From NCBI GenBank assembly GCA_947373605.1, contig CANBYM010000009.1:1-46301 (forward strand): a DNA stretch of 46,301 nucleotides, written 5' to 3'. The DNA is from Comamonadaceae bacterium (GTDB lineage: Bacteria > Pseudomonadota > Gammaproteobacteria > Burkholderiales > Burkholderiaceae_C). The notes beneath the pieces are model-generated. The model was not told where the DNA came from. It worked only from the letters and a program-made list of their open reading frames with translations, and did no database searches. Both the position numbers and the translations under genes were made by a program. Shown in pieces: positions 1-33,985 of this stretch (positions are counted from its first letter, which is position 1; every line of letters starts with the position of its first letter).

Positions 1-2591
1 ATCAGTTCCACCAAGCTGGCACTAATTGCCAATCCCAGGCCGGTGCCCCCATAACTTCGCGTTGTTGATGCATCAGCCTGTGAGAAGGCATCAAATATTG
101 ACTTCATTTTTTCAGGCGCGATACCAATGCCAGAATCCGCTACTGAAAAGATTGCCTCGACGACTTTCTCACTTACTGCAGAAAGTTGCAGCGCCACCCT
201 TACTTCTCCCGCGCTAGTAAATTTAATGGCGTTGTCGCACAGATTCGATAGCACCTGTCGAAGGCGACCGGGATCCCCAACCAGACGGGCGGGCAGATCC
301 TGTGGACTGTCAAAGCGCAAGACGAGGTGCTTTTCCTTGGCGCGAACCTGTATGCCTTGGAGCGTGTCACTTACCAATTGCCCTATGTCAAACGCAATAA
401 ATTCGAGTTCGATCTTGCCAGCCTCAATTTTAGAAAAATCAAGAATGCTGTTGAGAATTACCAAAAGCGATGCTGCCGAACTTTTCACTGCCTCCAGATA
501 GCTGCGCTGTGATGCAGTCAACGTCGTGTCGAGTGTCAAATCCGTCATGCCCATGATGCCATTCATGGGCGTTCGAATTTCGTGACTCATGTTAGCCAAA
601 AATTGCGATTTGGCCTGATTGGCACTAGCAGCACGCTGTTCGGCCTGTTTGCGCTGTTCTAGCGCCACATGCAAATCTGCGAGCCGCTGCTCCAAGCTGC
701 GCTGGGCCAGTTCAACTTGATTTCGTGCACCAATCAGCCCTTCGCGGGCGTCATCAATGCTGTGCGCTGCGCCGGCGATTTCCGCCTGTAAGTTATTGAA
801 GCTCTGGGCCATTTCGCCAAGTTCGTCGCGACTGTTTACTTTTACTGGGTGGCGGTCGACACGGGCGTGCGCCTCATCAAGGCGCCCTTCACCTAGAGCG
901 CGCATTGCTCGCGTGAAATCCGCTACCGTACCACTTGCCAGTCTTTGTGCAGCGGATGCCACTTCAACCGCAGAGTGCGCAATCATCCCTGGCAAAATCA
1001 GGCCCACGCTGATCGTGAGCATTGCAACAGCAACGAAAACGTCCTCCAATGCGCTGACCAATGCGCTGTTGCCTTTGGGCACGTTATCAACCGCCAGCAA
1101 ATATCCGGCACCGTCGAGCACGAGCACTAATAGCATCGCACCAGTGAGCTTGATATGCAGTGATGGTGGCACACCAGGCAAGCCAAGCTTGCGTCTGTCG
1201 GCAAACTTTCGAATGGCATAAAGGACAGCACCAGAGTAAGCGAACGCCAGACCGAAGAGGACCGTGGGCAAGCCAAACTGCTGGAACCCCAGAACACACG
1301 AGACACCCCATATTACGGCAGCCCAAAGTCCCAGCAGAATGGTTCCGCGCGGCGCTCTATAGGGGCGCACCATGTCCGGCTGGTCACGTCGGAGAAGCCA
1401 TACGGCTATGCTTGGCAATGCGATGCCGATGAGGTACGTAAAGTTGGCTGCAGCGACCAGCCAAATCGGGTCACCAATCAGCAAAAAGAAGATCGACATG
1501 GCCGCAGTAAGTAACGTGGCGGCCCATGGGGCATCATTAGGGGAACGCCGTGCCAGAAATGCGGGAACCAGTCCGTCTTCCGCCAGCTGTGAGAGGGTGC
1601 GCGATGCGCCCGCCAGCGGCTGGATGGTTCCATGAAACATATTGAGCATCATGAACCAGATGGCTGCAGCCTTGGCTCCGGAGCCCAACAGGGGCGCAAA
1701 TGTGGGCCCAAGCTCAAGCGCCAGATCTTTACCCAAAGGTTCAGCACCCAACGTGCCAAGCCAGACTACTGGCAACAAAATAAAATACACCGAGGCCATG
1801 ACTGCGGCGGCAAACATGGCGCGCGGTACGTTGCGTTGCGGGTCGCGCGTTTCGCCGACATGGCAAGCTGCGGCTTCGAACGCGGGTGCAGCAAAACCAA
1901 TTAGATACAGGCCGGCCATCAGGCTGGTGACATCTCCAAAAGAGCCAGGAAACGGCGTTGTCAAATGAAAGTCAAAAGCCCGATGCCAATCAACGGTACC
2001 TGAAAAGACAGGTACAACACCGGACAGGAACGCGAGAATGGCCGAGACAACTGCAATCGGTGTTGTCATGCGCGACACCCACTTCACACCCATCAAGTTA
2101 ACGCACATGAAGAACAGTACCAAGCCCGCTGCAAGCGCGTCTACCGACACGTCAGGCAGATACCAGCTTTTGATCGCCGCGGCAGACAATAGGGCCGTCA
2201 GACCGCAAGTAGGAACCCAACCCCACCAGTAGCAAGTGCCGGCAAGATTGGCCAGCACTGGAGCGTACGGCCGGAACGCTTCACTGCAAGTTGCAGCAAT
2301 ACCCCCAACTCGGTTGGGCCACATCAACACCAATTCGGTCCAGCCGGGCGCTGCAGCCCAACTCAGCAAAAGGCCTAAGGCCAGCAACGGAACGGCCGCA
2401 CTACCCTGACCAAGAATGTCCCCCTGTCCGGCAAAAAGTGCGGCAATAAGAAATAGGCTTTGGTTGCTGCCCCCCATTGCCAATGCAGCTGTCCCAATCC
2501 AGCCCAGTGTTCGTGGATGCTCCACCGTGGCAATAGGTACTTCAAGCGGTTGGAGCTGAAGTGGCGCTGCCGTTGATAAGGCGTCTGACAT
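1..2591 (-). CDS. APC-superfamily amino acid permease-like domain fused to HAMP + HisKA + HATPase_c sensor histidine kinase (3' end truncated by window)
   Basis: Manual reverse-strand translation from ATG at 2591-2589 stays open for 863 codons to the window edge. N-terminal part is hydrophobic and permease-like ([12 protein letters not shown]...[76 protein letters not shown]...). Then HAMP-like ...[13 protein letters not shown] (~800-835), His[21 protein letters not shown] (~545-600) and HATPase GTGLGLAIS (~20-47). Not in the ORF track because no stop lies in the window. Confidence 0.9.
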
Positions 2592-3089: not shown

Positions 3090-6000
3090 ATGCAGCTTAA
3101 AAACGTCCGATTTAGCGACGCAGGCATCGCATTTCCGGTGCTGCTATTCCTGTCGGGAGTTGCAGCTTTTGGAACAACAGCATATTTTCAACATCAGACC
3201 ATTGAAAAAAGCGCTCGTGCCGAGTTCGAGCGGATGTCCATACGTGCAGATGCTCAGATTGCAGACCGACTCGAAAAGGTTCTAACTGGCCTGAGAGGTG
3301 CTAGTGGTTTATTTGCGGCTAATCAACATATCGACCGTGGTGCGTTTCGCCGTTACGTCTTGGCGCGGGATATGGAGAAAGAGTTTGCAGGCGTACGTGG
3401 CTTTGGATTCATTCAACGCGTGGAACGCGCAGACCTGGCGTCGTTTGTAGCGGCAGAGCGAGCCGACGGTGCCCCTGAATTTTCTGTTCATCAGTTAAAC
3501 GATACGACCCAGCAAGATCTCTTTATCAGCAAATTTATTGAGCCAGCTATCAACAATGAAGGTGCGCAAGCGCTGGATATCGGTTCCGAGGCACTCAGAC
3601 GCGCTGGCCTCAGGCAAGCTATCAACACGGGCGCTGCCACTGTGACCGGTGTCATTTCGCTCGTGCAGGACGATAAGAAAAGACCCGCTGTGCTGCTCTA
3701 TCAACCCGTTTATAGAGCGGGAGCGCCGATGGAAAACTACACGCAACGCAATGCTGCATTGGTTGGAGTGCTTTACGCGCCCATCGTCATGGAGGAATTG
3801 CTTCAGGGCATGCCGGATGTGCAGTTGGGCCTACTGGATTTTGCAATTGTGGACGCACCCATCAACTCCAGTGGGGGGGGACTGATGTTCGACGCTGACA
3901 ATCACCTAAAACAATTGCCGGCAGGCTCAGATCCGGGAGTCGCGCAACGTTATTCCCTCAGTAAACCATTGCAGCTACCAGGACGCAGCGTGACTTTGAG
4001 CATGCGAAGCACACCGGCTTTTGATGCAACGATTAACCAGACTCAACCCTGGCTCATTTTGGGTGGCGGCAGCCTGATCAGTGCCTTGCTGGCGCTGATC
4101 TTGCACCAGCAAGCTACCGGGCGCCGTCGTGCTGAACACCTTGCCAGGATCAAAACGAATGATCTGAATATCGCCTTGCGCGATAACCGCACTATTCTTA
4201 CAGTGCTCAATCTGCACTCCATCGTTTCCGTGACGGATTTGGGTGGATACATCCTGGAAGCCAACGATGCTTTTTGCCAGATCAGTGGCTATTCCCGGAC
4301 AGAGTTGCTTGGCAGCAATCACAGCATTGTAAATTCCAGCATGCAATCCAAGGAATTCTGGGAGGACATGTGGATCACTATTTCCAGCGGTAAGCCCTGG
4401 CGCGCCGAGGTGTGCAATATGTCCAAAAGCGGACAGCCGTATTGGGTAGACACGCTCGTTACGGCCTTCGTTGGGGATGATGGAAAGATCGAGAAATACG
4501 TTTCCATACGCACGGATATTTCTGCACGGAAAAAGGCAGAGGAGGAGCTGCGATGGAGTCAGTCCCTAATGGAAAAAATGTCGAACTCATCGCCGCTGGC
4601 GCTTTTGGTGGTGGACAACCGCAGTGATGACATTTTGTATTTCAATGAGCGCTTTTGCCAACTCTGGGGCATCGACCATTTGGCTGCGCAAATGCATAGC
4701 CGTGCGCTTAAGAACAAAGACACCATGTCGGCTTGTACAAACGTGCTCGCAGATGCAACTGCGTATGCTGAATCCTGTAAGCCCTTGCAGGATGTGCGCA
4801 ACCGCGTCACATTGGAAGACGAGATTGCTTTCACGGGGCAGCGCACGGTACGCCGCTACACCACACAGATTCGGGACTCCGATGACCATTATTTCGGGCG
4901 CTTTTATATTTTTGAGGACATCACCGAACGCAAGACCGCTGAGCATGCGTTAACCAAGGCCATCGACGAAGCGCAAGCAGCGTCGCTAGCCAAGAGTCAG
5001 TTTCTGGCCAATATGAGCCACGAAATTCGAACGCCCATGCACGCAATTCTGGGAATGCTGATGCTTCTGGGTAAGACCGACCTTTCTGCACGCCAGGCGG
5101 ACTATGCAGCCAAGAGTGAGGGAGCTGCGCGCACCTTACTTAGCCTGCTCAATGAAATATTGGACTTCTCCAAGATTGAAGCCGGGAAAATGGAACTCGA
5201 CCCGCATCCCTTTGCGGTTGACAAATTGTTGCTTGACCTATCAGTGATTCTGTCTACCAGCGTTGGAATAAAGCCAATTGAAGTGCTGTTTGACATAGAT
5301 CCCAAGCTGCCGCGACAGCTGATGGGGGACGCGATGCGAATTCAGCAAGTCTTGTTGAATTTGGGTAGTAACGCCATCAAATTCACAGAGCGGGGCGAAG
5401 TAGTACTTTCCATTCAAGTGCTGCGTCAAAGTGAGGAGGCAGTCACATTGCAGTTTTGCATGCGTGACAGTGGCATCGGTATTGCCGCTGAAAATTTTGC
5501 GCGCATATTCTCCGGCTTTACACAGGCAGAGGCGTCCACTACGCGCCGCTTCGGAGGTACAGGGCTAGGTGTGGCGATCAGCCAGCGGTTTGTCGCCCTG
5601 ATGGGGGGCGAGTTGGAACTTCAAAGCGAGCTTGGCAAAGGAAGCCGCTTTTACTTCACGCTGACCCTGCCAGTACTGGCCGCAGTGGTGGAGGATAAAT
5701 CATTGCTTGAAGTTAGTCTTATTGATAGTCAATTCAGGCGGGTGCTGGTCATTGACGATAACCCGATAGCCCGTGAAGTCATGGAGCATATGTGCGGCTC
5801 ACTGGGATGGACCGTAGATCTGGCAGCCGGTGGCCAAAGTGGATTGGAGTTGTTGCAACAACGAAGCGCAGAAGGTGTTCAATACCAGGCGATATTTGTG
5901 GACTGGAACATGCCGGACATGGACGGTTGGCAGACCAGTCAGCATATTCGCGAAATTCTCTTGCACCGCAAACTGGTCGACGGCCACAAACAAGTGCCGG

Positions 6001-7262
6001 TTGTCGTGATGGTTACAGCTCATGGGCGTGAAATGATGACTCAGCGCACCGCAGAGGATCAGTTGCTTATTGATAGCGTTGTGATCAAGCCAGTTACGGC
6101 GTCCATGCTTTTAAATGCGGTGATTGATGCTCGCGACCATAACGATAATCGCCATCCGTCAGTCATCAATGGACCAAAATCACTCAGACGGCTCGATGGA
6201 ATGCGCTTGCTGTTAGTTGAAGACAACGTCAACAACCAGCAAGTAGCAAGAGAGTTATTGGAAGACGAAGGGGCATTGATGGAAGTGGCCCACAATGGCG
6301 TTGAAGCGCTTGAGGCCATCGCCAAAGCTACTCCAGGCAATGCATATGACGTAGTGTTGATGGACTTGCAAATGCCGGTGATGGATGGCTTCACAGCAAC
6401 GGAAAAAATCCGCAAGGAATTGGGGCTGACTACGTTGCCCGTCATTGCAATGACCGCTAACGCCATGTCCAGTGACCGTGATGCCTGTATTGCTGCAGGC
6501 ATGAATGATCATGTGGGAAAGCCCTTTGATTTAAATGAATTGGTTCGGGTCCTGCGCCACCACGCCAAGTGGGAAAGTATGGATAGTGCGTCAACCCAAT
6601 CCGAACCGTTGGTCAATCCGGCTATTCAAAAAATTGCCAGTGATACCGGTGTGGACTTGGTTACTGCATTGCACAGACTTGGGGGTAAGCAAGACGTGTA
6701 CATGCGCATGCTGCGGTCGTTTGTGAATGACTTGAAGGATATGCAGGATCAGTTGCTGGCGTTTCCATCTGAGGCCAGTCAGCCGTCCAAGCTGGACGAT
6801 ACAAAGCGTTTACTCCATACGCTCAAAGGTTTGGCGGCAACGCTGGGAGCGACCGCGTTGTCAAATGAAGCAGCAAGCGGTGGGAGAGCGCTAAGTGAGA
6901 GTTTGACGACGGAGAGGCACCTGCTGGCGGTCAGTCGCGTTGGTGATGCCACTACTTATGCCTTGCACGGTTTAAAGGCCCTACTGGCTGAATTACAACA
7001 AGTGCATTCGGCAACAGAACACGACAATCCACTTTGTAACGTCGACTCAATCGATAAGCCGATGCTGCAAGCGGCACTGCGTGCCTTGTCGTCGTCGTTG
7101 GAACAGCAGGACATGGAGTCTATGACGGCAATGGCCGAATTGCAGAAGCGGTTTGGCCAGAGCCTTGGTGAAGGCATTGCAGACTTGGAAGTAGCCATGG
7201 CAGACATGGATTTTGAAAAGGCATTGCCCTTTTGCAATGCGCTCCTTGAAAAATATTCTTGA
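3090..7262 (+). CDS. Hybrid sensor histidine kinase: TM-CHASE-PAS-PAS-HisKA-HATPase-REC-REC-Hpt
   Basis: 1390 aa. CHASE-like periplasmic region (FERMSIRADAQIADRLEKVLTGLRGASGLFAANQ), [26 protein letters not shown], two REC domains (VDWNMPDMDGW; LMDLQMPVMDG), Hpt HTLKGLAATLG. Confidence 0.95.
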   Translation: MQLKNVRFSDAGIAFPVLLFLSGVAAFGTTAYFQHQTIEKSARAEFERMSIRADAQIADRLEKVLTGLRGASGLFAANQHIDRGAFRRYVLARDMEKEFAGVRGFGFIQRVERADLASFVAAERADGAPEFSVHQLNDTTQQDLFISKFIEPAINNEGAQALDIGSEALRRAGLRQAINTGAATVTGVISLVQDDKKRPAVLLYQPVYRAGAPMENYTQRNAALVGVLYAPIVMEELLQGMPDVQLGLLDFAIVDAPINSSGGGLMFDADNHLKQLPAGSDPGVAQRYSLSKPLQLPGRSVTLSMRSTPAFDATINQTQPWLILGGGSLISALLALILHQQATGRRRAEHLARIKTNDLNIALRDNRTILTVLNLHSIVSVTDLGGYILEANDAFCQISGYSRTELLGSNHSIVNSSMQSKEFWEDMWITISSGKPWRAEVCNMSKSGQPYWVDTLVTAFVGDDGKIEKYVSIRTDISARKKAEEELRWSQSLMEKMSNSSPLALLVVDNRSDDILYFNERFCQLWGIDHLAAQMHSRALKNKDTMSACTNVLADATAYAESCKPLQDVRNRVTLEDEIAFTGQRTVRRYTTQIRDSDDHYFGRFYIFEDITERKTAEHALTKAIDEAQAASLAKSQFLANMSHEIRTPMHAILGMLMLLGKTDLSARQADYAAKSEGAARTLLSLLNEILDFSKIEAGKMELDPHPFAVDKLLLDLSVILSTSVGIKPIEVLFDIDPKLPRQLMGDAMRIQQVLLNLGSNAIKFTERGEVVLSIQVLRQSEEAVTLQFCMRDSGIGIAAENFARIFSGFTQAEASTTRRFGGTGLGVAISQRFVALMGGELELQSELGKGSRFYFTLTLPVLAAVVEDKSLLEVSLIDSQFRRVLVIDDNPIAREVMEHMCGSLGWTVDLAAGGQSGLELLQQRSAEGVQYQAIFVDWNMPDMDGWQTSQHIREILLHRKLVDGHKQVPVVVMVTAHGREMMTQRTAEDQLLIDSVVIKPVTASMLLNAVIDARDHNDNRHPSVINGPKSLRRLDGMRLLLVEDNVNNQQVARELLEDEGALMEVAHNGVEALEAIAKATPGNAYDVVLMDLQMPVMDGFTATEKIRKELGLTTLPVIAMTANAMSSDRDACIAAGMNDHVGKPFDLNELVRVLRHHAKWESMDSASTQSEPLVNPAIQKIASDTGVDLVTALHRLGGKQDVYMRMLRSFVNDLKDMQDQLLAFPSEASQPSKLDDTKRLLHTLKGLAATLGATALSNEAASGGRALSESLTTERHLLAVSRVGDATTYALHGLKALLAELQQVHSATEHDNPLCNVDSIDKPMLQAALRALSSSLEQQDMESMTAMAELQKRFGQSLGEGIADLEVAMADMDFEKALPFCNALLEKYS

Positions 7263-18541: not shown

Positions 18542-19551
18542 GCTGCCCCCCTTTTGTGAAGCGCGTCATGCGAATCCCAACGAGCTTTTTCTTGCAACAC
18601 GGCGGGCATGATTTCAATAAAAGCGCGCACCAAGCGCCCTTCCAGGTGTTGGTCCATGCCATGCAAGAGGTGCTCGGTCACTCGGTCAAGCGGCCAGATA
18701 TCTTTATAGGGGCGTTTCATACTCAATGCGTCAAACACATCGGCCACAGCCACAATTCGCGCCGCTTCAGGAATGGCATTACCGCGCAGCCCGCAGGGAT
18801 AGCCGCTACCGTCCCAACGCTCGTGGTGATTCTGAGCAATGACAGCCGCCAATTGAAATACTGGGCCATCTCCCTTATCGAGGATCTCCCTTCCGATGGT
18901 GGAGTGGGTGCGCATGGTGATCCACTCCTCGTTCGTCAGTGGGCCGGGTTTTTTCAGAATTCCATGGGGAATGCCCACCTTGCCCATATCGTGCATGGGC
19001 GCGGCCAGTTCCAGCAGTGCTGCTCGCTCAGGTGCCCAGCCAACGGCGCGTGCCAGTAATTTGGAGAACGCAGCCATGCGCCATATGTGGTGGCCGGTGT
19101 CGTTGTCGTTGTAGTGACCTGCCTCGCCCAGCATGTAGATGGCAGCACGGTAACTGGCTTCCAGCGCCGTGCTGCGCACCAGTGACAGGTGCGAGCGCAC
19201 ACGGGCACGCAAAATGGATGGCGAAATTGGTTTGGAAATATAGTCCACAGCACCTGCGGCAAAGCCGGCCTCTTCGTCCACTTCGCCATTGCGGGCAGTC
19301 ACAAATATAATTGGTGTATTTTCGAACTCTTTTCGTGCCTTGAGGGCGCGCGCAACCTGCAGACCATCCATGTCAGGCATCAGCACGTCCAGGAGGATTA
19401 GCGATGGCCGGTGGCGTTCACTGGCCTCAATAGCTGCAGCCCCACTGCGGGCAAAAGCCAACTGGAATTCGTCCTGAAGCACCGATCGCATTAGTCCAAG
19501 GTTGGCCGGGTCATCGTCCACACAAAGTATGGGGCCATAGTGCACTGTCAT
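18538..19551 (-). CDS. Response regulator with HD-GYP domain (putative c-di-GMP phosphodiesterase)
   Basis: REC (CVDDDPANL...LLDVLMPDMDGLQVA) followed by HDMGKVGIPHGILKKPG and HHERWDGSGYPCGLRG. Confidence 0.95.
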   Translation of the reverse strand: MTVHYGPILCVDDDPANLGLMRSVLQDEFQLAFARSGAAAIEASERHRPSLILLDVLMPDMDGLQVARALKARKEFENTPIIFVTARNGEVDEEAGFAAGAVDYISKPISPSILRARVRSHLSLVRSTALEASYRAAIYMLGEAGHYNDNDTGHHIWRMAAFSKLLARAVGWAPERAALLELAAPMHDMGKVGIPHGILKKPGPLTNEEWITMRTHSTIGREILDKGDGPVFQLAAVIAQNHHERWDGSGYPCGLRGNAIPEAARIVAVADVFDALSMKRPYKDIWPLDRVTEHLLHGMDQHLEGRLVRAFIEIMPAVLQEKARWDSHDALHKRGAA

Positions 19552-22500
19552 TTTTGTACCTCTAATCCAACTTCAGCAGTCTGTATCCACTTGCTGACAC
19601 CTTCGAAATCGAAACCATCTAACAATGCCTGCAGCCTTGCCAAGTCTGCGTGGGGCAACAACTGCTCCAAAGACGGTAAATGTTGCTCAACTTGGGACGG
19701 GTCATCGGTATCGACGGCGACCCGCATTTGTGCCAACAAGGCCCGCCGGGCACCGGCCTGATCAGATTTATTGGCGTGTACCAGTGGAATTCCTGCAGTC
19801 AGCACTTTTAATGTTGCATCCACCGCAGGCTGATGTGACTGCAAATAGTCTTCGACAACCCCTACCGTCGCCTGAAGCACGCCCTGCAATTCCTGAATCC
19901 GAACTGCAATTTGCTCCGGTGCGTTGTTTGATTGCGCCGACACTTCGATGGTGGCCGCCAATGCCATGCAGCGCTCCAGCGACAACGCTCCCGCAGCACC
20001 ACGCAGTTTGTGCGACACGTTGACCATTTCCCGTGTACTTCCCGCTGCCAGCAGTTCAAGCAACTGCGTTCCATCTGCGCCATGCTCTTGCAGAAAGGTA
20101 TTCAAATGGCGTATCAGTGTTTCGGTGCGACGCCATTTGCGTTGTGCTCCATCTACATCGAAAAGAAGTTTGTCGTCCCAGTGGTTACCGCCTTGTGCCA
20201 CCGAGGTCGCGGGCGGGGCACCAGCGAGAAGCATGCCGGACCTTTGCGGCGCTAGGGCGCCGGTCGCACGGTCCTGCACCAGTTGCACGATGGTGTCCAG
20301 CAATTGGTCCACGTCAAATGGCTTGGGCACAAAGGCGTCCATGCCACGCTGCAGCGCCATTTCGTGCTGGTTCTTGAGCGCGCCGGCGGTAAGTGCAATC
20401 ACTGGCAGGTGCTTGAGTGAGGGGTGCAGCCGGATCTGGCGCGTGGCTTCATAGCCGTCCATCACGGGCATCTGCACATCCATCAGCACGATGTCGTAGT
20501 TTGTGGATCCACTGCTGAGGCGAATAAGCGCTTCGGCGCCGTCACGGGCTATGTCCACCAACGCACCTTCACCCACCAAAATATCCAGCGCAACGTCGCG
20601 GTTGATCTCGCTGTCATCGACCACCATCACGCGGATACCGGCCAACCGCTGTCCCACACTTTGCGTATAAAGGCGCGGTGTCAGCAGACCATGGTGCGAT
20701 TTGGCCTCCACGACGGCATTGAACATTGAAGACGCCGTCATTGGCTTGGATGCCACCACGTCAGCAAAGCGGCTAAGGGGATCGTCCATTAGGTCGTCAC
20801 GATCGTATGAAGTTACCATCACTACTGCTGGCACGATAGCCCCCTGCAAAGAAGGAATCAGTTGCTCAAGCGTTTGCAAGCCATTGAGCCCAGGCATGCG
20901 CCAATCCACCAACAATGCGTCATAGCTGGGTTGCGGGCTACGGCGGTACAACTCCAGCGCCTGCTCGCCACTCTCCACCACGTCCACACTCCAACCCAGC
21001 GAGCGCCCGGCTTCCTGCAACACCATCCGGGCCGTTTCGTTGTCGTCCACCACCAGCACACACTGGTGCGACAGTTCGGGCGTGGCATTGCGGGTGGGTT
21101 CGCTCCCGGCAAACTCCAATATGAAGGAGAACTGGCTGCCCACGCCCGGTTCGCTTTGAACCTGCAGCGTGCCACCCATAAGTTGCACCAATTGGTTGCT
21201 GATGGTCAGACCTAGGCCGGTGCCACCAAAGGTGCGCGTGGTGGAGCTGTCTGCCTGCGAAAAGGGTTGGAAGATACGTTCCAGCTTGTCCGCAGGAATA
21301 CCTACGCCGGTGTCTCGGACCACAAAGCGCAGGCAATGCCGGTCTGCTGCGGTTGCTGGCATTTTTTCCATCGCCAGTACCACTTCGCCCTGATGGGTGA
21401 ACTTGACGGCATTGCTGGCCAGATTGAGCAGCACCTGTCCTAGACGCAGTGGGTCGCCTCGCAGGTAGTCGGCATCCACGGGCACGCTGGCAATCGCGAC
21501 CTCCAGGTTCTTCTTGCCCACTGCAGCCGACAGAATGCCGGCCAGGTTGTCCAGAATGTCCGAGAGCCGGAACGGCACTTCTTCAATCTGCAGATGCTTT
21601 GACTCGATTTTGGAGAAGTCCAGTATGTCGTTGATGATGCCCAAAAGCGACTTGCCCGAGCTGTTGATCTTGTGCGCCATGGCGCGCACGGTGGGGCTCA
21701 GGTCATGCTTATCCATCAGATAGGCCAAGCCCAAAATTCCGTTGAGCGGCGTGCGAATCTCATGGCTCATATTGGCCAGAAACTCCGACTTGGCGGTATT
21801 GGCATGCACAGCAATTTCCATAGCCCGGGTCAGGTCTATAGAGCGCTCCGCCACTTGCGACTCCAGGGTGGTGTTGAGCTGCTGCAACTCTGAGGTGCGC
21901 TCGGACACCTGTGCTTCCAGCGAGGCATTGGCTTGCAGCACACGCTCCTGGGCCAGTTTGATATCGGTGATATCGCGGTTGGTACCCACCATCTGAACCG
22001 CTTCACCCTTGTCGTTGTGCTCCAAAATGCCGGCGGCCTGTACGTACCGGATGTTGCCGTTGTCTTGAAGGATGCGGAACTCCACTTTGTATTCATCCGT
22101 TCCAGCAATATGACCGTGCAGCTTCGCAGTGGCAAGGGCCACATCGTCCGGGTGCACTCTGGATTTCCAGTAGTCGTAAAACAACTTGCTGTCGGCCAAA
22201 TCCTCGGGAGCGCCGTAGATTTCCAACATGCGCTTGTCCCACGTCAGACTATTGTTGGCAAGGTCCAGTACCCAGATGCCCAGGCCCGAGGATTCAAGTG
22301 CCATCTCCAGCCGAGCATAGGTGGAGTGCAGTTGGGTCTCGAGTTGGTGACGCTTGGAAATATCCACCACAGACGCCAGCGTAAACATGCCATCGGGTGT
22401 TTCTATAGGGTTGAGCGCGATTTCGATCAACACCTCGCTGCCGTTCTTGCGCACGCCGTGAAGCGTCTTACCCTCACCCATGGTCCGAATATTGGGTGCG

Positions 22501-24092
22501 GCACTGTAACCCTGGACCAGATCAGGGTGGTGAGCGCGAAATCGCAAGGGCACTAGACTGCTGATCGGTTTGCCTAACAGTTCTGCGCGCTCGTAGCCGA
22601 ATAACACCTCAGTCTGTTGATTGACTAGGGTAATCTGTTGCGCCTGATTGACTAGGAGCATGGCGCTGGGAGCAGCCTCCACGGCCAGCCTGAACAACTG
22701 CTCATTACGTTTTTGCTGGGTGATGTCGCGCAGCGTCTTGGCTGCACCAATAATCTGGCCCTTGTTATCGCGAATCGGTGACAAGGAGACAGAGACGTCT
22801 ATTTTTGCGCCAAGGCGGGTGTGGCGCACCGTAGAAAAGTGCGGCACCAGTTCGCCGCGCCCTATGCGGGTAAAAAAGTCACGGTCTTCCTGCGCCAGTT
22901 CCTCCGGCACGATCAAATCAATCAGGCTTCTGCCGAGAGCATCTTTTTCCCGGTAGCCGAAAATTGCTTCAGCGGCCTTGTTCCAACTGCTCACCTGCCC
23001 ATTCAGGTCAGCGCCGATGATGGCGTCAGTGGAGCTGTCAATAATGGCCGCCAGGCGGCTTTGCGAGATGGAGGAAATTTCGTGCCGCACGCGGTTGCGC
23101 ATCGCAAAATACACCACTGACGCAAGCAGGAAAAACAGAGTGGCTATGCCCATCGCCACCTGCTGAGGGGCCAATACGTTGCCGGGCAGAAACTGCGGTT
23201 TCGCTCTGGTTTCAATTAACCATTCGCGTTCAAAAACCGTTATGCGCATGGAACTCGACAGTGGATTTTTGTCCAAGCTGTTGAAGTCCGGGCCGCTGTA
23301 AATTTGCGCGGGTGCGCTGGCATCCGTAATGTCCGTCAGCTGGACCGATATTTCGGGCCCACCCAGGCCCAGGTACTTCAGCAAGTCCCTGATCACCAGC
23401 GGGTAATAGCACCAGCCAACATTCGCGCTGCTGCGCGGCGCGGCGGTGTCCAGTGGCATGCCCTTGCCAAACACCGGGAGCAGCAGCATGAAGGAGGGCA
23501 TGGGCTCTCCGGCGGAACCCACCATGATGATAGGCGCAGTCAGCGTGGCCTTGCCGGATTCAATAGCATGTTCGGCAGCCTTGCGTCGGTTAGGCTCTGA
23601 GGCCAGATCCAGTCCGATGGCGGAGTAATTGCTGTCCTGCGGCTCAATGTATTGAATCAGGTAGCGGTCACCGGGATGCGGGGCAAACTGCCGCACGGCA
23701 AAGTCAGGCACGCCGTCCCGACGTGCCGAATTGACGAATTCAGCCTCCTGGGCTGCAGCCACGCGCCTGACAAAACCTACCCCCGCAACACCCGGAAATT
23801 CGCGCTCGGTATCCCGTGAATTTGCATAGTCAGCAAAGCGCGCCCTGGTGGTCTGCGCCATGCCTGCGGCAGAAAATGCCCCACACGCGCCTAGTAACCC
23901 AAAGCGGTAGTTTTCAAACTTGGCTACAAAAGTGTTGCCGAAATCTTGGGTGAAATGCTCAAACCGGAGTTGCCGGGCCAGCGCATTTTCGTTTTGCTGC
24001 CAGGCGGCACCCATGCCCGCAGCCAGCAAACCCAAAGCCACAATGGCCAGACTCACCATGCGCGCCGAGCCGATTAAAAAAGAAGATTTCAC
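19548..24092 (-). CDS. Hybrid sensor histidine kinase: TM-CHASE-multiple PAS-HisKA-HATPase-REC-REC-Hpt
   Basis: 1514 aa. CHASE-like N-terminus ([13 protein letters not shown]), PAS repeats ([29 protein letters not shown]), [45 protein letters not shown], Hpt [11 protein letters not shown]. Confidence 0.95.
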
Positions 24093-25643: not shown

Positions 25644-27683
25644 TCAGCTGCGCTTGGCCACCAAAGTCAGGATGTCATAACTCGCCACCAGTTCACCCAA
25701 CTGATTGGTAACCTCCACATCCCACGCCACCACGCCCTGCCCGACGCCATTGGAATCTACCTTCTTGCGATCGATCTTGCGCTTGGCAGTAAGCCGCGCC
25801 TGAATCGTGTCACCGATGCCTACCGGCTTGACGAAGCGCAACGTATCCAAGCCATAGTTCGCCAATACCGGCCCCGGCGCCGGAGACACAAACAGACCAG
25901 CGGCGGCGGAGAGCACGAAATAGCCGTGCGCAATGCGTTTACCAAACGGTGAGTCTTTGGCCGCCACTTCGTCGAAGTGCATATAAAAGTAGTCGCCCGA
26001 AATGCCGCCGAAGGCCACGATGTCGGCCTCGCCCACTGTGCGGCGGTGCGTCAACAAAGAGTCGCCAATCTTCAGGTCTTCAAAATGGCTGCGAAAAGGA
26101 TGCACCACGGTGTTGTTGACCTTGGCACCGCGCACATGCTCGCCGGTGACGGCAGATAGCATGGTTGGGGAGCCTTGCAACGCGGCGCGTTGCAGGTAGT
26201 GTTTGACGGCGCGCAGGCCGCCGAGTTCTTCGCCGCCACCGGCGCGCCCCGGGCCGCCATGCTTGAGCGTGGGCAGCGGTGAGCCGTGGCCCGTGGACTC
26301 TACTGCGGACTCGCGGTCCAGAATGTGCAATCGGCCGTGCCATGCGGCCATGGTGGGAATGGCTTTGGCGGCGACGGCTGTGTCGTGCGTGACCAGTGTG
26401 GCAACCAGACTGCCCTGGCCGCGCGCGGCCAGGGCCAGCGCCTCATCCAGATCTTCATAGGCCATGACGGTGCTGACCGGGCCGAAGGCTTCAATGTTGT
26501 GCACCGAATCCACGTCCATCGGCTTGCGGCAGGCCAGCAACGTGGGCGCCACAAACGCGCCACCTTCAGTGCCGGCACCCGTCCAATCAGTCTTGCCGCT
26601 GAACGCCAACTCGGCGTCCTTGCACAAGAGCGCAATGCGCTCGACCACATCGGCCTGTTGCGCATGCGAAGCCAGCGGCCCCATGCGCACACCGTCCACA
26701 CCGGGGTCGCCCACCGTGGCCTTGGCCAGGCGCGCGGCGAGTAGCTCGCACACAGCGTCCATGTGTTTGGCGGGCACAATGGCGCGGCGAATGGCGGTGC
26801 ACTTCTGGCCGGCCTTGACCGTCATCTCGCGCGCCACTTCTTTCACAAACAGATCAAACTCTTCGTCGTCCGGGCTCACATCGGGCGCGAGGATGGCGCA
26901 ATTGAGCGAGTCCGCTTCGGCATTAAACGGCACCGAGTTCGCCACCAGATTAGGGTGCACGCGCAGGCGCGCTGCGGTGTCGGCCGAACCGGTGAAGGTA
27001 ACCACATCGGCACCATTCAAGCGGTCCAGCAAATCGCCGGTGCCGCCAATTACCAGTTGCAAACTGCCTTCGGGCAGGATGCCCGACTGCACGATGAGGC
27101 GCATGGCCGCTTCCGTCAGGTAGCTGGTGGCACTGGCCGGTTTACCGATGCAAGGCATGCCCGCCAGAAAGCTGGGCGCAAATTTTTCCAGCAAGCCCCA
27201 CACCGGGAAGTTGAAGGCGTTGATATGCACTGCCACACCACCGCGCGGCACGAGGACGTGGGTGCCCGCGAAACCGCCCTTTTTACCTAGCGGGAACGCC
27301 GGGCCTTCGTGCACCAAATTGCCCGAGGGCAACTCATTGCTGCCGATGGATGCATAGGCATACAAGGTGCCTGCGCCGCCATCAATGTCGATCCAACTGT
27401 CCACCTTGGTGGCGCCGGTATGCGCGGACACGGCGTACAACTGCTCTTTGTGTTCCAGCAGGTATTTGGCCAGTGCCTTAAGGCGCTGGGCACGCTCTTG
27501 AAAATCCATCGCCATGAGGGCGGGAAGCCCTTTGCGGCGCGCGTGCTCCACGGCCTCGCCGAAGTCCAAGCTTTCCGCATGGGTGTTAGCCACGGTGGCT
27601 CCGTTGACGGCGCTGCGCAATGCAGACGCAGCTTGCGTGCCTTGCCATCGTCCACCGATATAGCTTTGAAGTGTTTGTGCCAT
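25644..27683 (-). CDS. paaZ: PaaZ: bifunctional oxepin-CoA hydrolase / 3-oxo-5,6-dehydrosuberyl-CoA semialdehyde dehydrogenase
   Basis: ALDH domain (LQSYIGGRWQG...VTFTGSADTAARLR...GQKCTAIRRAIVP) fused to a C-terminal MaoC-like hydratase (HRRTVGEADIVAFGGISGDYFYMHFDE). Confidence 0.95.
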   Translation of the reverse strand: MAQTLQSYIGGRWQGTQAASALRSAVNGATVANTHAESLDFGEAVEHARRKGLPALMAMDFQERAQRLKALAKYLLEHKEQLYAVSAHTGATKVDSWIDIDGGAGTLYAYASIGSNELPSGNLVHEGPAFPLGKKGGFAGTHVLVPRGGVAVHINAFNFPVWGLLEKFAPSFLAGMPCIGKPASATSYLTEAAMRLIVQSGILPEGSLQLVIGGTGDLLDRLNGADVVTFTGSADTAARLRVHPNLVANSVPFNAEADSLNCAILAPDVSPDDEEFDLFVKEVAREMTVKAGQKCTAIRRAIVPAKHMDAVCELLAARLAKATVGDPGVDGVRMGPLASHAQQADVVERIALLCKDAELAFSGKTDWTGAGTEGGAFVAPTLLACRKPMDVDSVHNIEAFGPVSTVMAYEDLDEALALAARGQGSLVATLVTHDTAVAAKAIPTMAAWHGRLHILDRESAVESTGHGSPLPTLKHGGPGRAGGGEELGGLRAVKHYLQRAALQGSPTMLSAVTGEHVRGAKVNNTVVHPFRSHFEDLKIGDSLLTHRRTVGEADIVAFGGISGDYFYMHFDEVAAKDSPFGKRIAHGYFVLSAAAGLFVSPAPGPVLANYGLDTLRFVKPVGIGDTIQARLTAKRKIDRKKVDSNGVGQGVVAWDVEVTNQLGELVASYDILTLVAKRS

Positions 27684-27709
27684 AGAAGTTCTTAAAAAAG
27701 TGAATGGAT

Positions 27710-28813
27710 TTAGCGTTCGTCAAAGCTGATGGTCACATCTTCAGAGGTGGGACGCGACTGGCAGGAGAGCACAAAGCCCTTTTCAGTTTCCCAAGTTTCG
27801 AGGCCGAAGTTTTTGTCCATCGCCACAGTGCCGTTCATCACCTTGCAGCGGCAGGTGGCACATACGCCGCCCTTGCAGGAAAACGGCAGGTCCAGGCCCG
27901 CGGTCATGGCCACGTCGAGCACATGTTCATCGGGGTTCATGTGGAGTGCGTGGGCCTTGCCGTCCAGCACCACGGTCAACACAACTTGCCCGCCGGAGGG
28001 GAGTTTGAGCTTGGCCACAGAGGCCTTGCGCGCTTCGGGCGTGAGTGCTTCCAGCACTGGCGAAGTGAATCGCTCGGTGCGAATGTTGGCGGCGGGCAAA
28101 CCGGCTTCCAGCAAGGCTTTTTCGGTGACTTCAATCATCACCTCCGGGCCGCAGATGAACACCTCGCCCATGCTGGCTACGGGCAGCAAGGTGTCAATGA
28201 TGGAGCGCACTTTCTCCGCATCGATACGACCTTGCAGCAGGTCCACTTCCTGCGCCTGCCGCGAGAAGATGTGGATCAACGTGAGTCGGTCTGCAAAGCG
28301 GTCTTTGAGGTCTTGCAAGGCTTCATTGAACATGACCGAGTTCATGCTGCGGTTACCGTACACCAGTGTGAACTTGGACTCGGGCTGGTCTTCAAGCGTG
28401 CTGGCCATGATGGACAAAATGGGTGTGATGCCCGAGCCCGCTGCAAAGGCCACGCGGTGCAGCGCGCGCGGGCGCTTGGACACAAAGCGACCTTCAGGTG
28501 GCATAACTGCAAGCGTGTCGCCGGCCTTCAGGTTGGCCGCCGCCCAGTTGGAAAACACGCCACCCTCCATGGGACGGATTCCCACCACCAACTCGCGCCT
28601 GGCCTTGAGGTAACCATGGGTAGAACAGATAGAGTAGCTGCGCCGTACGTCGGCACCATCAATCTGGCTACGCAAGGTGAGATACTGGCCGGGCACGAAG
28701 TCAAAGCGCTCCAACAAAGTATCGGGCACGCTGAAGGCAATGGCCACCGATCCGGCAGCCTCGGGGCTGACCCGCGCAACGCGCAAATCATGGAAACGGG
28801 GAATTGCAGTCAT
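27710..28813 (-). CDS. paaE: PaaE: phenylacetyl-CoA epoxidase reductase component (FNR-like + 2Fe-2S)
   Basis: RRSYSICST, FAAGSGITPILSI, and plant-type ferredoxin motif LPFSCKGGVCATCRCKV. Start at MTAIPRFHDL. Confidence 0.93.
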   Translation of the reverse strand: MTAIPRFHDLRVARVSPEAAGSVAIAFSVPDTLLERFDFVPGQYLTLRSQIDGADVRRSYSICSTHGYLKARRELVVGIRPMEGGVFSNWAAANLKAGDTLAVMPPEGRFVSKRPRALHRVAFAAGSGITPILSIMASTLEDQPESKFTLVYGNRSMNSVMFNEALQDLKDRFADRLTLIHIFSRQAQEVDLLQGRIDAEKVRSIIDTLLPVASMGEVFICGPEVMIEVTEKALLEAGLPAANIRTERFTSPVLEALTPEARKASVAKLKLPSGGQVVLTVVLDGKAHALHMNPDEHVLDVAMTAGLDLPFSCKGGVCATCRCKVMNGTVAMDKNFGLETWETEKGFVLSCQSRPTSEDVTISFDER

Positions 28814-28826
28814 AGGGATACGTGAG

Positions 28827-29402
28827 TTAGTACGGCTTGAAGTAATCAAACGGCTCCATGCATTGCAGGCAGCGGTACAGTGCCTTGCAAGCGGTGGATC
28901 CGAAGTGGGAAATTTCGGTGGTGTTGGCAGAGCCGCATTGCGGGCAGTCCACGGTGTCGTGCACTGTCAGTCCGGACATTGTTGACCGGCGCGGCGCGAA
29001 GCGCACCACCTGTGCACCTCCTTGTGCACTGCCACTTGCAGTACAGGCGTTGCGCGCCGGCGGTGCAATACCATAGGCGCGCAGTTTTTCGTGGGCCTCC
29101 ACTGACATCCAGTCAGTGGTCCAGGCCGGTGCGAGTTGTATAACCACGGTTGCGGCAATGCCCACACTCTTGAGTGCATTGGCTACGTCGTCTTCCATCT
29201 GGCCCATGGCAGGACAGCCGCTATAGGTCGGTGTAATCACGACTTCCAACCCCCGTGCACCCTCGCGGACCTCACGCAGAATGCCCATCTCGCGCAGATT
29301 CACCGCCGGGATTTCCGGGTCGGTCACGGCCTCCAGCAAAGCCCAAATATCGGGTTGCTGTTGATGCGGCAATGGCGGCTGAATTTGCGCGGTCATGCTC
29401 AT
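28827..29402 (-). CDS. paaD: PaaD-like phenylacetate epoxidase assembly protein
   Basis: LLEAVTDPEIPAVNLREMGILREV...TPTYSGCPAM...DCPQCGSANTTEISHFGSTACKALYRCLQCMEPFDYFKPY. Confidence 0.93.
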   Translation of the reverse strand: MSMTAQIQPPLPHQQQPDIWALLEAVTDPEIPAVNLREMGILREVREGARGLEVVITPTYSGCPAMGQMEDDVANALKSVGIAATVVIQLAPAWTTDWMSVEAHEKLRAYGIAPPARNACTASGSAQGGAQVVRFAPRRSTMSGLTVHDTVDCPQCGSANTTEISHFGSTACKALYRCLQCMEPFDYFKPY

Positions 29403-29407
29403 GCCGA

Positions 29408-30193
29408 TTACCAGACGGCCTCAGGGTGCGCGCGCGCCAGGCTTTGCATTTCTGCCAGCACAAAGCCCAGGTGCTCGGAATGCACGCCCAGCTTGCCGGT
29501 GGTGAAAAAGCCTGCGCTGCTTGAGCGCTTAAGGGTTGCGGCTTGCAGAGTATCGCTAACCAAAGCGTCCCACTCGGCTTTGAACGCGCTGGCATCGACG
29601 CCCAGACCGGACTGCACTGCTGCCGACTCCATGGCGCTTGGCGTCCAGAACTCTTGCGTGAAGGGCATCAAGTAATCAAACGCGGCCTGAATGCGTGCGT
29701 GCGAATCGTCGGTGCCATCGCCCATGCGCAACACCCAGTCGTGCGCATGGCGCAGGTGGTACTGCACTTCTTTGAGCGACTTGGCAGCGATGGCAGCCAA
29801 TTGCGCATCGGTAGACGCCTGCAGCGCGGACCAGACCTGCTCCATGAGCGCGCTGTATAAAAAGTTGCGCGCAATAGTTACCGCATAGTCTCTGTCGCCG
29901 CGTGCGGTGGGCAATATGGCGGTGCTGTGCGGCAGCTCTAGAAGTGTGTAGTTTTTAAACTCAGGCACATCGCGGAAATAGGCCAGCAGGTCTTCGCTGC
30001 TCTTGCCGTCTTTGCGCAACACTGCCACATGCTGGTACAGCATGCGGGCCTGACCGATCAGGTCCAGACTATTGTTGGCCAGTGCAAGGTCTTCTTCCAG
30101 AATGGGTCCGTGGCCACACCACTCGGCATTGCGTTGCCCGAGGATCAGTGCGTTGTCGGCTAAAAGAAGCAGGTAGTCGTGGTTGGCAGCCAT
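29408..30193 (-). CDS. paaC: PaaC: phenylacetyl-CoA epoxidase subunit
   Basis: LADNALILGQRNAEWCGHGPILEEDLALANNSLDLIGQARMLYQH, located between paaB and paaD. Confidence 0.94.
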   Translation of the reverse strand: MAANHDYLLLLADNALILGQRNAEWCGHGPILEEDLALANNSLDLIGQARMLYQHVAVLRKDGKSSEDLLAYFRDVPEFKNYTLLELPHSTAILPTARGDRDYAVTIARNFLYSALMEQVWSALQASTDAQLAAIAAKSLKEVQYHLRHAHDWVLRMGDGTDDSHARIQAAFDYLMPFTQEFWTPSAMESAAVQSGLGVDASAFKAEWDALVSDTLQAATLKRSSSAGFFTTGKLGVHSEHLGFVLAEMQSLARAHPEAVW

Positions 30194-30489
30194 TACATGT
30201 GCCCCACTTCGTCGGGGATCTCATAAAACGTGGGGTGGCGGTAAATTTTGTCGGCTGCTGGTTCAAACATCGCGTCCTTGTCTTCCGGCGCGCTGGCTGT
30301 GATGAGCTTGGAGGGCACCACCCAGATGCTCACGCCTTCCTGGCGACGGGTGTACACATCGCGGGCCATTTGCAGGGCGTGCTGCGCGTCGGACGCATGC
30401 AGGCTGCCACAGTGCTTGTGTTCCAGTCCTTGCTTGCTGCGAACGAATACTTCCCAGAGGGGCCAGTCTTTCAGTGCAGGGGTACTCAT
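30193..30489 (-). CDS. paaB: PaaB: phenylacetyl-CoA epoxidase subunit
   Basis: [58 protein letters not shown]. Start at 30489 overlaps the paaA stop (ATGA). Confidence 0.94.
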
Positions 30490-31505
30490 GCTGCTTCCTT
30501 TTGCTTTTGGGGTTGGTGCTTTTGGGCGTAGGCCAGCGCGGCATCGCGCACCCATTGGCCGTCGTTGTGCGCTTTGACCCGGGTAGCCAGGCGCTCTTTG
30601 TTACAAGGGCCGTTACCGTTGACGGTGCTCCAGAACTCGTCCCAGTCGATCTGGCCGTAGTCGTTGTGCTGGCGCTCTTCGTTCCACTTCAGGTCAGGGT
30701 CGGGCAGTGTCACGCCCAGCACTTTGGCCTGCGGCACGGTGGCGTCAATAAACTTCTGGCGCAGGTCGTCATTGCTGATGCGCTTGATGCCCCAGCGCAT
30801 GGCCTGCTCGCTGTGCGGGCTATTGGTGTCGGGCGGCCCGAACATGGCCAGGCACTTCCACCAGAAGCGGTTGACTGCGTCCTGCACCATGGCCTTTTGT
30901 TCGGCCGTGCCTTGCATCATCACCAACAAGGCTTCATAGCCCTGGCGTTGGTGGAAAGATTCTTCTTTGCAGACGCGGATCATGGCGCGTGCATACGGGC
31001 CGTAAGAGCAGCGGCACAGCGGGATCTGGTTCATGATGGCCGCGCCATCGACCAGCCAGCCGATCACACCTACATCTGCCCAGTTGAGCGTGGGGTAGTT
31101 AAAGATCGAGCTGTACTTGGCCTTGCCACTGTGCAGGTCGGCCAGCATCTGGTCGCGCCCCTGGCCCAGGGTTTCGGCGGCGCTGTATAGGTACAAGCCG
31201 TGTCCGCCTTCGTCCTGCACCTTGGCAATCAGAATGGCCTTGCGCTTCAAGCTGGGCGCGCGGCTGATCCAGTTGCCCTCGGGCAGCATACCGACGATTT
31301 CGCTGTGGGCGTGCTGGCTGATCTGGCGAACCAATGTCTTGCGATAGGCCTCGGGCATCCAGTCCTGTGGCTCAATCTTGCCGTCTGCATCAATGCGAAC
31401 ATCAAAGCGCTTTTGCGCCTCAGCATTTTCAAGCGCCACTGGCTTAGGAGCGGACTTCTGGCCCAGCGTTTCCTGCACATTAAAAGATTGGGTGTACATC
31501 TGCAC
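30486..31505 (-). CDS. paaA: PaaA: phenylacetyl-CoA epoxidase catalytic subunit
   Basis: [66 protein letters not shown]...[15 protein letters not shown]. Confidence 0.95.
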
Positions 31506-31569
31506 GCACTCCTTGGGTTGTTATTGGGTTAGGCTTGGATCGAGCCGGGGCGCCGCATATCAAACATAG

Positions 31570-32715
31570 TTACTTCGACATCACCCAGTCGCCGTTCTTG
31601 ATTTCAAACATGCGAAAGGCCGACAGGTCCAGACCCATGTGATCGGTGGCCGACATGTTGAACACGCCGCCGGTGCCGACAAAGCCTTTGGTGGCTTCGA
31701 TGGCGTCGCGCACTTTGGCTTTGTCAGTCGAACCGGCACGCTTGATGGCATCCACAGCGAGCGCTAAGCCGTCGTAGGCGTAGCCACCGAAAGCGGACAC
31801 ATCCGTCTTGTACTTGGCCATGAAGGCCTTGGCGTAGCCTTCCGCCACGGGGCGCTGCGGGTCATTGGCAGCCAGTTTGTCCGGTGCCAGCAAAGCCGAT
31901 GTCGGCAGGCGCACACCCTCGGACGCGGGGCCTGCGAGCTTGATGAAGTCGTCCGACGCTACGCCGTGCGCGTGGTACAGCGGCAGCGTAATGCCGAGTT
32001 GTTTGTAACCCTTGGTCACCAATGCGGGACCCTGCCCCAGACCAAAGACGAACACTGCTTCTACGCCGGCAGTGTTGCGGATTTTGGTGAGCTGCGGGCC
32101 CATGTCGGTGTCTTTGGGTCCGTAGGTTTCATTGGCTACCAGCGTGATGCCGTATTTAGTGGCGACACCTTCAGTTTCCTTGCGGCCGCTTTGTCCGAAA
32201 CCACTGGTTTCCGACAGCAGGGCCACCTTGGTGATGCCGCGCTTCTTCATGTCGTCAAACACTTTTTCGGCGGCCATACGGTCGGTGTGCGGGGTCTTGA
32301 AAACAAACTTCTTGACCGGCTCAATTACAACCACAGCACCGGCCAGCGAGATGAACGGAATACCGGCCTTTTCGACCAGCGGCACCATGGACATGGTGGC
32401 GCCGGTGGTGGTACCACCTACGAGGATGTCAACCTTGTCGTCATCAATTAGGCGCTTGCCAAAGCCATTGGCCTTGCTGGCGTCGCTGCCATCGTCGTAA
32501 TGCACCAGCTCCAGCGGACGGCCCAGCACTCCGCCTTTTTTGTTGATGTCTTCCACCATCATTTGCAGGGTCTTGAGTTCGGGGTCACCGAGGTAACCGG
32601 CGGGGCCGGTGATCGAGAGCACCGAGCCGATCCTGATCGGGTCGGCAGCAAACGTCGTACCCATCGACACCAGCAGTGCACCTGCCACAGCTAGTTTTTT
32701 GAAGTTTGAAATCAT
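31570..32715 (-). CDS. Branched-chain amino acid-type ABC transporter substrate-binding protein
   Basis: Signal peptide then DPIRIGSVLSITGPAGYLGDPELKTLQMMVEDINKKGGVLGRPLELVHYDDGSDASKA (LivJ-type periplasmic binding protein). Start at MISNFKK. Confidence 0.92.
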   Translation of the reverse strand: MISNFKKLAVAGALLVSMGTTFAADPIRIGSVLSITGPAGYLGDPELKTLQMMVEDINKKGGVLGRPLELVHYDDGSDASKANGFGKRLIDDDKVDILVGGTTTGATMSMVPLVEKAGIPFISLAGAVVVIEPVKKFVFKTPHTDRMAAEKVFDDMKKRGITKVALLSETSGFGQSGRKETEGVATKYGITLVANETYGPKDTDMGPQLTKIRNTAGVEAVFVFGLGQGPALVTKGYKQLGITLPLYHAHGVASDDFIKLAGPASEGVRLPTSALLAPDKLAANDPQRPVAEGYAKAFMAKYKTDVSAFGGYAYDGLALAVDAIKRAGSTDKAKVRDAIEATKGFVGTGGVFNMSATDHMGLDLSAFRMFEIKNGDWVMSK

Positions 32716-32767
32716 GGAGAGTCTCCTTCTTGGTTTGTTGTAAATACAGTCAATCAATTGAGCTGAA

Positions 32768-33973
32768 TCAGACGCGTTCTATGACCAGCGCAATGCCCTG
32801 TCCCACACCGATGCACATGGTGCACAGCGCGTAGCGGCCATGGCGGCGGATCAGTTCATACATGGCGGTGGTAACCAGTCGCGCGCCGCTCATGCCAAGC
32901 GGGTGACCCAGTGCGATAGCACCGCCGTTTGGGTTGACGCGCGCATCGTCATCGGCCAGCCCCAGATCACGCATGACCGCCAGTCCTTGCGCGGCAAAGG
33001 CTTCGTTGAGTTCAATCACATCCATTTGCGCCAGCGTCAATCCGGTTTGCTGCAGCAGCTTTCGCACCGCAGGCGCGGGGCCTATGCCCATCACGCGCGG
33101 CGCCACTCCGGCGGTGGCCATACCGACCACACGGGCTTTGGGCGTGAGGCCAAAGCGGGCAGCCGCATCTTTGGACGCCAACAGCAAAGCACATGCGCCG
33201 TCGTTCACACCCGATGCGTTGCCCGCAGTCACCGACAAGTCGGGACCATTAACGCCCTTGAGTTTGGCCAGCATCTCCAGCGTGGTGTCAGGGCGGGGAT
33301 GTTCGTCGGTATCAAACACCACAGGGTCCCCTTTTTTGCGCGGCATGACCACCGGAACCAGCTCGTCGGCAAAGCGGCCTGCGGCATGGGCGGCGGCCCA
33401 TCGCTGCTGTGAGCGGATTGCAAAGGCGTCCTGATCGGCACGCGCAATTTTGAAGTCCGCTGCCACGTTGTCTGCGGTTTGCGGCATGGAGTCCACACCG
33501 TGCATGCTCTTCATGAGCGGATTGACAAAGCGCCAGCCTATGGTTGTGTCAAAAATCGCCGCGTTGCGCGAGAAGGCAGTGTCCGCCTTGCCCATCACAA
33601 ACGGGGCGCGAGACATGCTCTCCACGCCGCCCGCAATCATCAGTTGCGTCTCGCCCGATTTGATGGAGCGTGCAGCCATGCCGACGGCGTCCATACCGGA
33701 GCCGCAAAGGCGGTTGAGCGTGGTGCCCGGCACGTCGATGGGCAACCCGGCCAAGAGGCTCGACATGCGTGCCACATTGCGGTTGTCTTCACCGGCTTGG
33801 TTGGCGCAGCCATACAAAACATCGTCTACAGCAGCCCAGTCCACACCGACGTTGCGTTGCATCAGCGCTTTGATCGGCAAAGCGCCCAGATCATCGGGGC
33901 GCATGCCACTTAGGGCACCGCCATAGCGGCCTATGGGGGTACGGATGGCGTCACAAATAAAAGCTTCGGTCAT
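32768..33973 (-). CDS. paaJ: 3-oxoadipyl-CoA thiolase (PaaJ/PcaF type)
   Basis: MTEAFICDAIRTPIGRYGGALSGMRPDDLGALPIKAL...LNRLCGSGMDAV...NPNGGAIALGHPLGMSGARL...CIGVGQGIALVIERV. Confidence 0.93.
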   Translation of the reverse strand: MTEAFICDAIRTPIGRYGGALSGMRPDDLGALPIKALMQRNVGVDWAAVDDVLYGCANQAGEDNRNVARMSSLLAGLPIDVPGTTLNRLCGSGMDAVGMAARSIKSGETQLMIAGGVESMSRAPFVMGKADTAFSRNAAIFDTTIGWRFVNPLMKSMHGVDSMPQTADNVAADFKIARADQDAFAIRSQQRWAAAHAAGRFADELVPVVMPRKKGDPVVFDTDEHPRPDTTLEMLAKLKGVNGPDLSVTAGNASGVNDGACALLLASKDAAARFGLTPKARVVGMATAGVAPRVMGIGPAPAVRKLLQQTGLTLAQMDVIELNEAFAAQGLAVMRDLGLADDDARVNPNGGAIALGHPLGMSGARLVTTAMYELIRRHGRYALCTMCIGVGQGIALVIERV

Positions 33974-33985
33974 GGGTTTTCCTTT

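Follow-up and report, generated by a model that had tools for sequence, protein, structure and literature searches.

The window (the whole stretch of 46,301 nucleotides analysed here, from a Comamonadaceae bacterium) begins with a truncated gene on the minus strand, running from an ATG at position 2591 to base 3, that encodes an APC permease, two further transmembrane helices (TM13/14), HAMP, HisKA and HATPase_c (open frame and Pfam matches). The first-pass annotation had described an uninterrupted frame of 863 codons here, and there is indeed no stop between 2591 and 3, the frame simply running off the left edge. This edge is a true contig end (contig C9 begins at window base 1), so that the gene is cut inside HATPase_c and its 3' end is absent from the assembly, a draft of 331 contigs that is 90% complete.

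The permease domain (residues 25–460, positions 1212–2519, minus strand like all the features of this gene) has 12 TM helices in a LeuT fold, as seen by Pfam, an AlphaFold2 model and Foldseek. DSSP of the model places a break in TM1 at N43-Q44 (2460–2465) and another in TM6 at G232-F233 (1893–1898). Then comes an extra hairpin, TM13-TM14 (residues 478–536, 984–1160), formed by the model helices 478–502 and 509–567 with a loop of ca. 6 residues. HAMP follows at residues 557–605 (777–923; PF00672, E 3.6e-7), with a score barely over the Pfam cut-off (30.9 vs. 25 bits), and leads into a helical signalling linker (residues 606–659, 615–776; model helix 590–639, mean conservation 0.54) whose length and content differ with the output domain. 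The kinase consists of the HisKA dimerisation and phosphoacceptor domain (residues 660–725, 417–614; PF00512, E 1.7e-20) and HATPase_c (residues 772–862, 6–278; PF02518, E 8.2e-22, profile positions 1–85 of 111). Its motifs are intact, with the H-box SHEIRTP at 669, the N-box NLCDN at 783 and G-boxes at 819 and 849. By motif, the protein classes as a histidine kinase, having HisKA with an H-box and HATPase_c with N and G boxes, the ATPase profile being covered only to 85 of 111. Pfam found no PAS domain in it. The HAMP-HisKA-HATPase order proposed initially was thus confirmed. The reading of the first ca. 500 codons as permease stood as regards the APC family and had to be corrected in extent, since the permease proper takes up ca. 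430 residues (25–460) and is followed by the TM helices 478–502 and 509–536 before HAMP.

A pair of large CHASE-PAS-HisKA-HATPase hybrid kinases, each with two receivers, lies at 3090–7262 (plus strand) and 19548–24092 (minus strand), the first of them transcribed divergently from the permease-kinase gene. Between 13180 and 16562 there is a LuxR/NarL-looking response regulator (minus strand), and beside it a 227-residue protein, YfiR-like by eye, and a HAMP-containing kinase-like protein (plus strand). Further on, 25644–45218 holds an apparent phenylacetate-type cluster, with an ALDH-MaoC fusion (PaaZ-like), a PaaK-like ligase, a PaaX regulator, branched-chain-type ABC genes and a TctC receptor.

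Fold and profile both place the N-terminal half in the APC family. Pfam AA_permease_2 matched residues 29–436 (E 4.7e-33) and AA_permease matched as well, both profiles above their gathering scores (115.2 bits vs. 27 and 75.1 vs. 24.6). The best NCBIfam families were APC members, the TMAO permease ranking ahead of amino acid and L-type transporters and of ethanolamine permease. The TMAO permease model NF053774 was the best-scoring named subfamily (E 6e-39) and matched all four modules tested; however, its 134 bits for the window protein are far from the equivalog cut-off of 690, and we do not assign the protein to it. A profile of 80 modules, from the best 80 of the 143 relatives described below, matched SLC7 structures in the PDB (y+LAT1/2 and xCT). 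The AlphaFold2 model was built from the 80-sequence alignment (fairly uniform) as a monomer with no templates, and reached a mean pLDDT of 83.4 and a pTM of 0.80. It has 14 TM helices, the 12 of the permease up to residue 468, then the hairpin 478–502 and 509 onwards, where TM14 and the first HAMP helix form a single continuous helix (509–567). Foldseek against the PDB ranked BasC, AdiC, y+LAT1, LAT1 and GkApcT at the top, with target-normalised TM-scores of ca. 0.7–0.8 (up to 0.82 for AdiC and 0.79 for BasC) and roughly 15–21% identity in the structural alignments to the BasC/AdiC/LAT1/GkApcT class. The assignment to APC rather than SSF was thereby upheld by Pfam, NCBIfam, the SLC7 matches and the Foldseek search alike, and the model agrees with a 12-TM APC fold in which TM1 and TM6 are broken and whose closest structures are those of APC proteins. 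We rejected membership in the SSF/CbrA family, as the window protein had no SSF match in Pfam even at E ≤1 and matched AA_permease_2 instead.

Several known systems resemble this protein in part. In the SLC5-STAC kinases (CbrA, CrbS, MxtR and RpuS) the histidine kinase likewise has a LeuT-fold transporter fused to its N-terminus, with an additional receiver in CrbS and MxtR, and the SLC5-STAC unit has been reported with GGDEF outputs too (PMC5715377, PMC7918813). However, their transporter is of the SLC5/SSF type with 13 TM helices, whereas ours is APC/SLC7-like with 12, and they couple through the cytoplasmic four-helix STAC domain, whereas here a TM hairpin and HAMP appear to take over that role. 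Residues 437–556 gave no domain with the Pfam profiles, and in the model they hold two TM-length helices that lead to HAMP. The comparison with CbrA and CrbS that had been drawn at the outset is sound as an analogy, with two TM helices and HAMP apparently as the linker rather than STAC. Ks-Amt5 too derives its sensor from a transporter fold, to which the kinase is fused, and sensing with loss of transport has been shown for it (PMC5764959), but it is a trimeric protein of the Amt fold, a different transporter family, without HAMP; the window protein has HAMP and no match to an ammonium-transporter profile in Pfam, so that we do not class it with Ks-Amt5. The 5TMR/S-component kinases similarly combine one transporter-like membrane fold with histidine kinase, GGDEF, EAL and other outputs (PMC11109136), the fold being that of the S-component of ECF transporters and not LeuT/APC. 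The TMAO permease (NF053774), BasC, AdiC, LAT1 and GkApcT share fold and family, but are stand-alone proteins of about 430–520 residues without TM13-14, HAMP or any signalling domain. Amino acid permeases act as sensors in yeast, where the Gap1 transceptor is cited as an example (in PMC11109136), and in E. coli LysP-CadC (PMC5936718); unlike the window protein, Gap1 and LysP signal via separate partners and have no covalently fused kinase or cyclase. We found no description of an APC-kinase or APC-GGDEF fusion in the open-licence papers searched, and one may well exist elsewhere.

To find relatives, peptide patterns from within the permease were run against the contigs of 84,980 species, each represented by one genome, and 143 relatives were confirmed. 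Nearly all of the best 80 span query residues ca. 25 to ca. 625–640, at 62–92% identity. By the names of the records they come from Pseudomonadota, Verrucomicrobiota, Actinomycetota, Armatimonadota, Myxococcota, Chloroflexota and Omnitrophota (MAG bins may hold foreign contigs). Among these 80 the pairwise identity was on average 71% in the permease (minimum 57%) and 61% from TM13 to HAMP, and the C-terminal parts of the relatives align at just 17% mean column identity. Residues ca. 25–605 (permease, TM13-14 and HAMP) are a discrete module. The closest relative (L019, also a Comamonadaceae) has 92% identity over the module and agrees in 790 of the 863 residues encoded before the contig end. 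A stop or frameshift between the permease and kinase parts, which had been set as a check on the fusion, was not found, the frame being kept against L019 at this 92% identity. The DNA similarity between the two ends ca. 88 bases upstream of the start codon, so that the two genes lie in different surroundings. In other families of the order, too, relatives (L009, L010 and L016) show the fusion, which rules out an assembly joint. Both L019 and L016 end in a receiver domain, which supports the earlier suggestion of a receiver past the left edge; from these relatives, one is expected in the window protein beyond the contig end. We saw no unfused close copy in ca. 1760 genome look-ups (some repeated), fragments at contig ends such as L125 aside, and the next-best permeases in the searched genomes were only 26–28% identical. 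A more distant member (L017, ca. 38% identity), with a GGDEF-EAL output, is fused too, and thus the family is wider than the tight group.

The outputs carried by the module could be counted in 76 readable loci of the best 80, leaving out L077 (frameshifted), L051 and L088 (matching in one frame but interrupted by stops) and L084 (ending at its contig end). Pfam gave HATPase_c in 51, HisKA in 45, Response_reg in 39, GGDEF in 23, EAL in 21, HPt in 10, HisKA_2 in five and HD_5 in two. The kinase ATPase (51/76) and GGDEF (23/76, mostly with EAL) leave two loci in neither group, L055, cut at a contig end, and L047, interrupted after the start of a PAS-like stretch. One genome bin even has two copies with different kinase classes, HisKA (L037) and HisKA_2 (L081). 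On the module tree, with output classes assigned by motif (totals agree closely with Pfam), the class changed at least 12 times, and the well supported branches alone force at least six changes of the HisKA label and at least four of the GGDEF label. The tree itself mostly clusters by phylum (9 changes vs. the least possible 6). The first reading, of a single kinase fusion, had seen only part of the picture. What it could not show is that, in several phyla, the permease-TM13/14-HAMP unit also serves c-di-GMP enzymes and kinases of other types.

Presence of the module is patchy. Within the order, four of 398 further genomes had fused forms (three at 65–72% and one at 38%), and across the phylum none of 398 others did. 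They were present in 4/150 genomes of the family of a Methylotenera isolate and 4/149 of that of a Methylocapsa isolate, and among 289 genomes sampled from the phylum to which a Verrucomicrobia isolate belongs, only the centre genome itself had one. This patchiness, together with the 57–93% identity across phyla, suggests that the module has spread horizontally under strong constraint, with a tree that still follows phylum for the most part. A single plasmid match was found, in Paraburkholderia sp. PREW-6R.

The constraint can also be seen in the gene itself. In the comparison with L019, Ka/Ks was 0.044 for the permease, ca. 0.04 for TM13-14, ca. 0.06 for HAMP and linker and ca. 0.10 for HisKA-HATPase; at the sequence level this predominance of synonymous substitution shows purifying selection on the fused gene. 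Conservation over the 80 modules (best 80 of the 143 relatives) was 0.78–0.88 in the helices that form the APC pocket (TM1a/1b, 3, 6a/6b, 8 and 10) and highest at the helix breaks (0.99–1.00), where N43 is kept in 79/80 and Q44, G232 and F233 in 80/80. E239 likewise counts as a conserved residue of the pocket. TM4, TM5 and TM11 were low (0.62–0.71). TM2 (0.84) and TM13 (0.82) equal the pocket helices, so that conservation extends past the pocket. The TM13-TM14 loop is variable (mean conservation 0.34) and, being of only ca. 6 residues, leaves no room for a separate periplasmic sensor. With the pocket helices and breaks conserved and no such room outside, the signal is likely to enter at the pocket and to be transmitted by TM14-HAMP acting as a rod.

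The domains, the fold, the conservation of the module and its fusion to many signalling outputs can be read directly from the data, and we read the protein as a transceptor-type sensor, by analogy with the SLC5-STAC kinases but on another transporter family. In our judgement an APC-fold transporter domain probably forms the basis of a membrane sensor here, in which ligand binding in the pocket, or the outward/inward switch, is relayed through TM13-14 and HAMP to a dimeric output. The permease part would bind one conserved small organic ligand (amino-acid- or amine-like, going by family) between the broken TM1 and TM6. Binding, or the switch between outward and inward states, would shift the helix bundle, and the movement would pass through TM13-TM14 and the continuous TM14-HAMP helix. 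In the window protein the output, a putative hybrid histidine kinase, would then autophosphorylate at His670, and the phosphate would go to its own receiver and on to an HPt protein or a response regulator. In the relatives the equivalent sensor would drive other kinases or GGDEF/EAL/HD-GYP c-di-GMP enzymes. We infer ligand control of the output, dimerisation and the direction of the response.

An alternative is that the protein is a true bifunctional transceptor, in which the permease takes up its substrate and the kinase reads the transport flux, as in CbrA. CbrA is the nearest mechanistic analogue and transports histidine (PMC13022988, PMC7096432), and an APC fold that is complete with its 12 TM helices and both breaks, and whose core is strongly conserved, would fit such a role. 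However, kinase fusion can accompany loss of transport, as in Ks-Amt5, and the patchy presence is unlike that of a core uptake system. Proton coupling of the ApcT type uses a lysine in TM5 as the proton site. No lysine is found among the common residues of the TM5 membrane columns in the best 80 of the 143 relatives, which makes proton-coupled uptake doubtful (the K158A entry 3gi8 is among the Foldseek matches of the model). We consider flux reading unlikely, and the sequences lean towards sensing with altered or no proton-coupled transport.

Less probable still is a permease part that does no more than anchor the protein in the membrane or act as a scaffold for dimerisation, the real input being cytoplasmic (PAS) or the state of the membrane. 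Some relatives do have PAS between HAMP and output (PAS_3 in 18/76 loci), where it could provide a second or even the main signal, and the divergent member L017/L131 (ca. 38%) has lost several pocket motifs yet is still fused. But few parts of the protein are as well conserved as the pocket helices and breaks, the Ka/Ks of the permease is below that of the kinase, and the window protein has no PAS. Finally, the position of the gene at a contig end of a 331-contig draft might invite the idea that an assembly or frame artefact joined two adjacent genes, which we practically dismiss, given that the fusion recurs at 62–92% identity in about 80 genomes, including the complete-titled Verrucomicrobia bacterium IMCC26134 (L023) and the isolates L063, L064 (Glaciimonas immobilis, GGDEF type), L070, L087 and L098 (Roseiarcus fermentans, kinase type), and that low Ka/Ks against L019 and the permease-HAMP arrangement in about 80 independent genomes make the frame neither chance nor an assembly joint.

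Even for CbrA, whose trigger is unclear (PMC13022988), it is an open question how a transporter fold relays a signal through the membrane to the kinase. The sensor proposed here would couple another transporter family through HAMP, a well-studied bacterial signal converter, and its natural occurrence on kinases and c-di-GMP enzymes provides ready-made chimeras with which binding and transport can be tested as the signal. Genes easily annotated from one half, as "permease" or as "kinase", would become recognisable as one sensor family. The wider proposal could about equally well hold or fail: that APC-TM13/14-HAMP is an undescribed, horizontally spread sensory module that detects one widespread small molecule, is interchangeable on two-component and c-di-GMP signalling in about seven phyla, and couples the motion of a LeuT-fold bundle to HAMP.

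As to the ligand, the conserved pocket is offered for its discovery. TM1 of APC transporters usually has Gly-Ser-Gly. Here the motif reads AMGGSNQS, with the usual Gly-Ser-Gly not apparent, and going by this reading the ligand may be something other than a common alpha-amino acid. Among 122 adjacent genes, clustered and searched with Pfam, the only kind that recurred was signalling genes (Response_reg in 16/122). No metabolic gene recurred from which a ligand could be named, and we rejected an assignment from gene neighbourhood. The TMAO-permease match and several methylotroph hosts point to methylated amines, but carriage is only 4/150 and 4/149 in the families of the Methylotenera and Methylocapsa isolates, and we keep this ligand only as a lead. 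In four Verrucomicrobiota loci of the HisKA_2 type (L031, L044, L071 and L081) the next gene on the same strand overlaps the end of the sensor gene or directly adjoins it, suggesting a co-transcribed partner. The N-terminal half of the divergent homologue at L131:1386–1686 (end of contig C83 of G202) ends in RSEERRVGKEC, which looks like sequencing-adapter carry-over. At L018:1405–3848 an unfused APC permease (28% identity to the module) is followed by a gene resembling creatininase by eye, a possible substrate hint from what is only a distant cousin.
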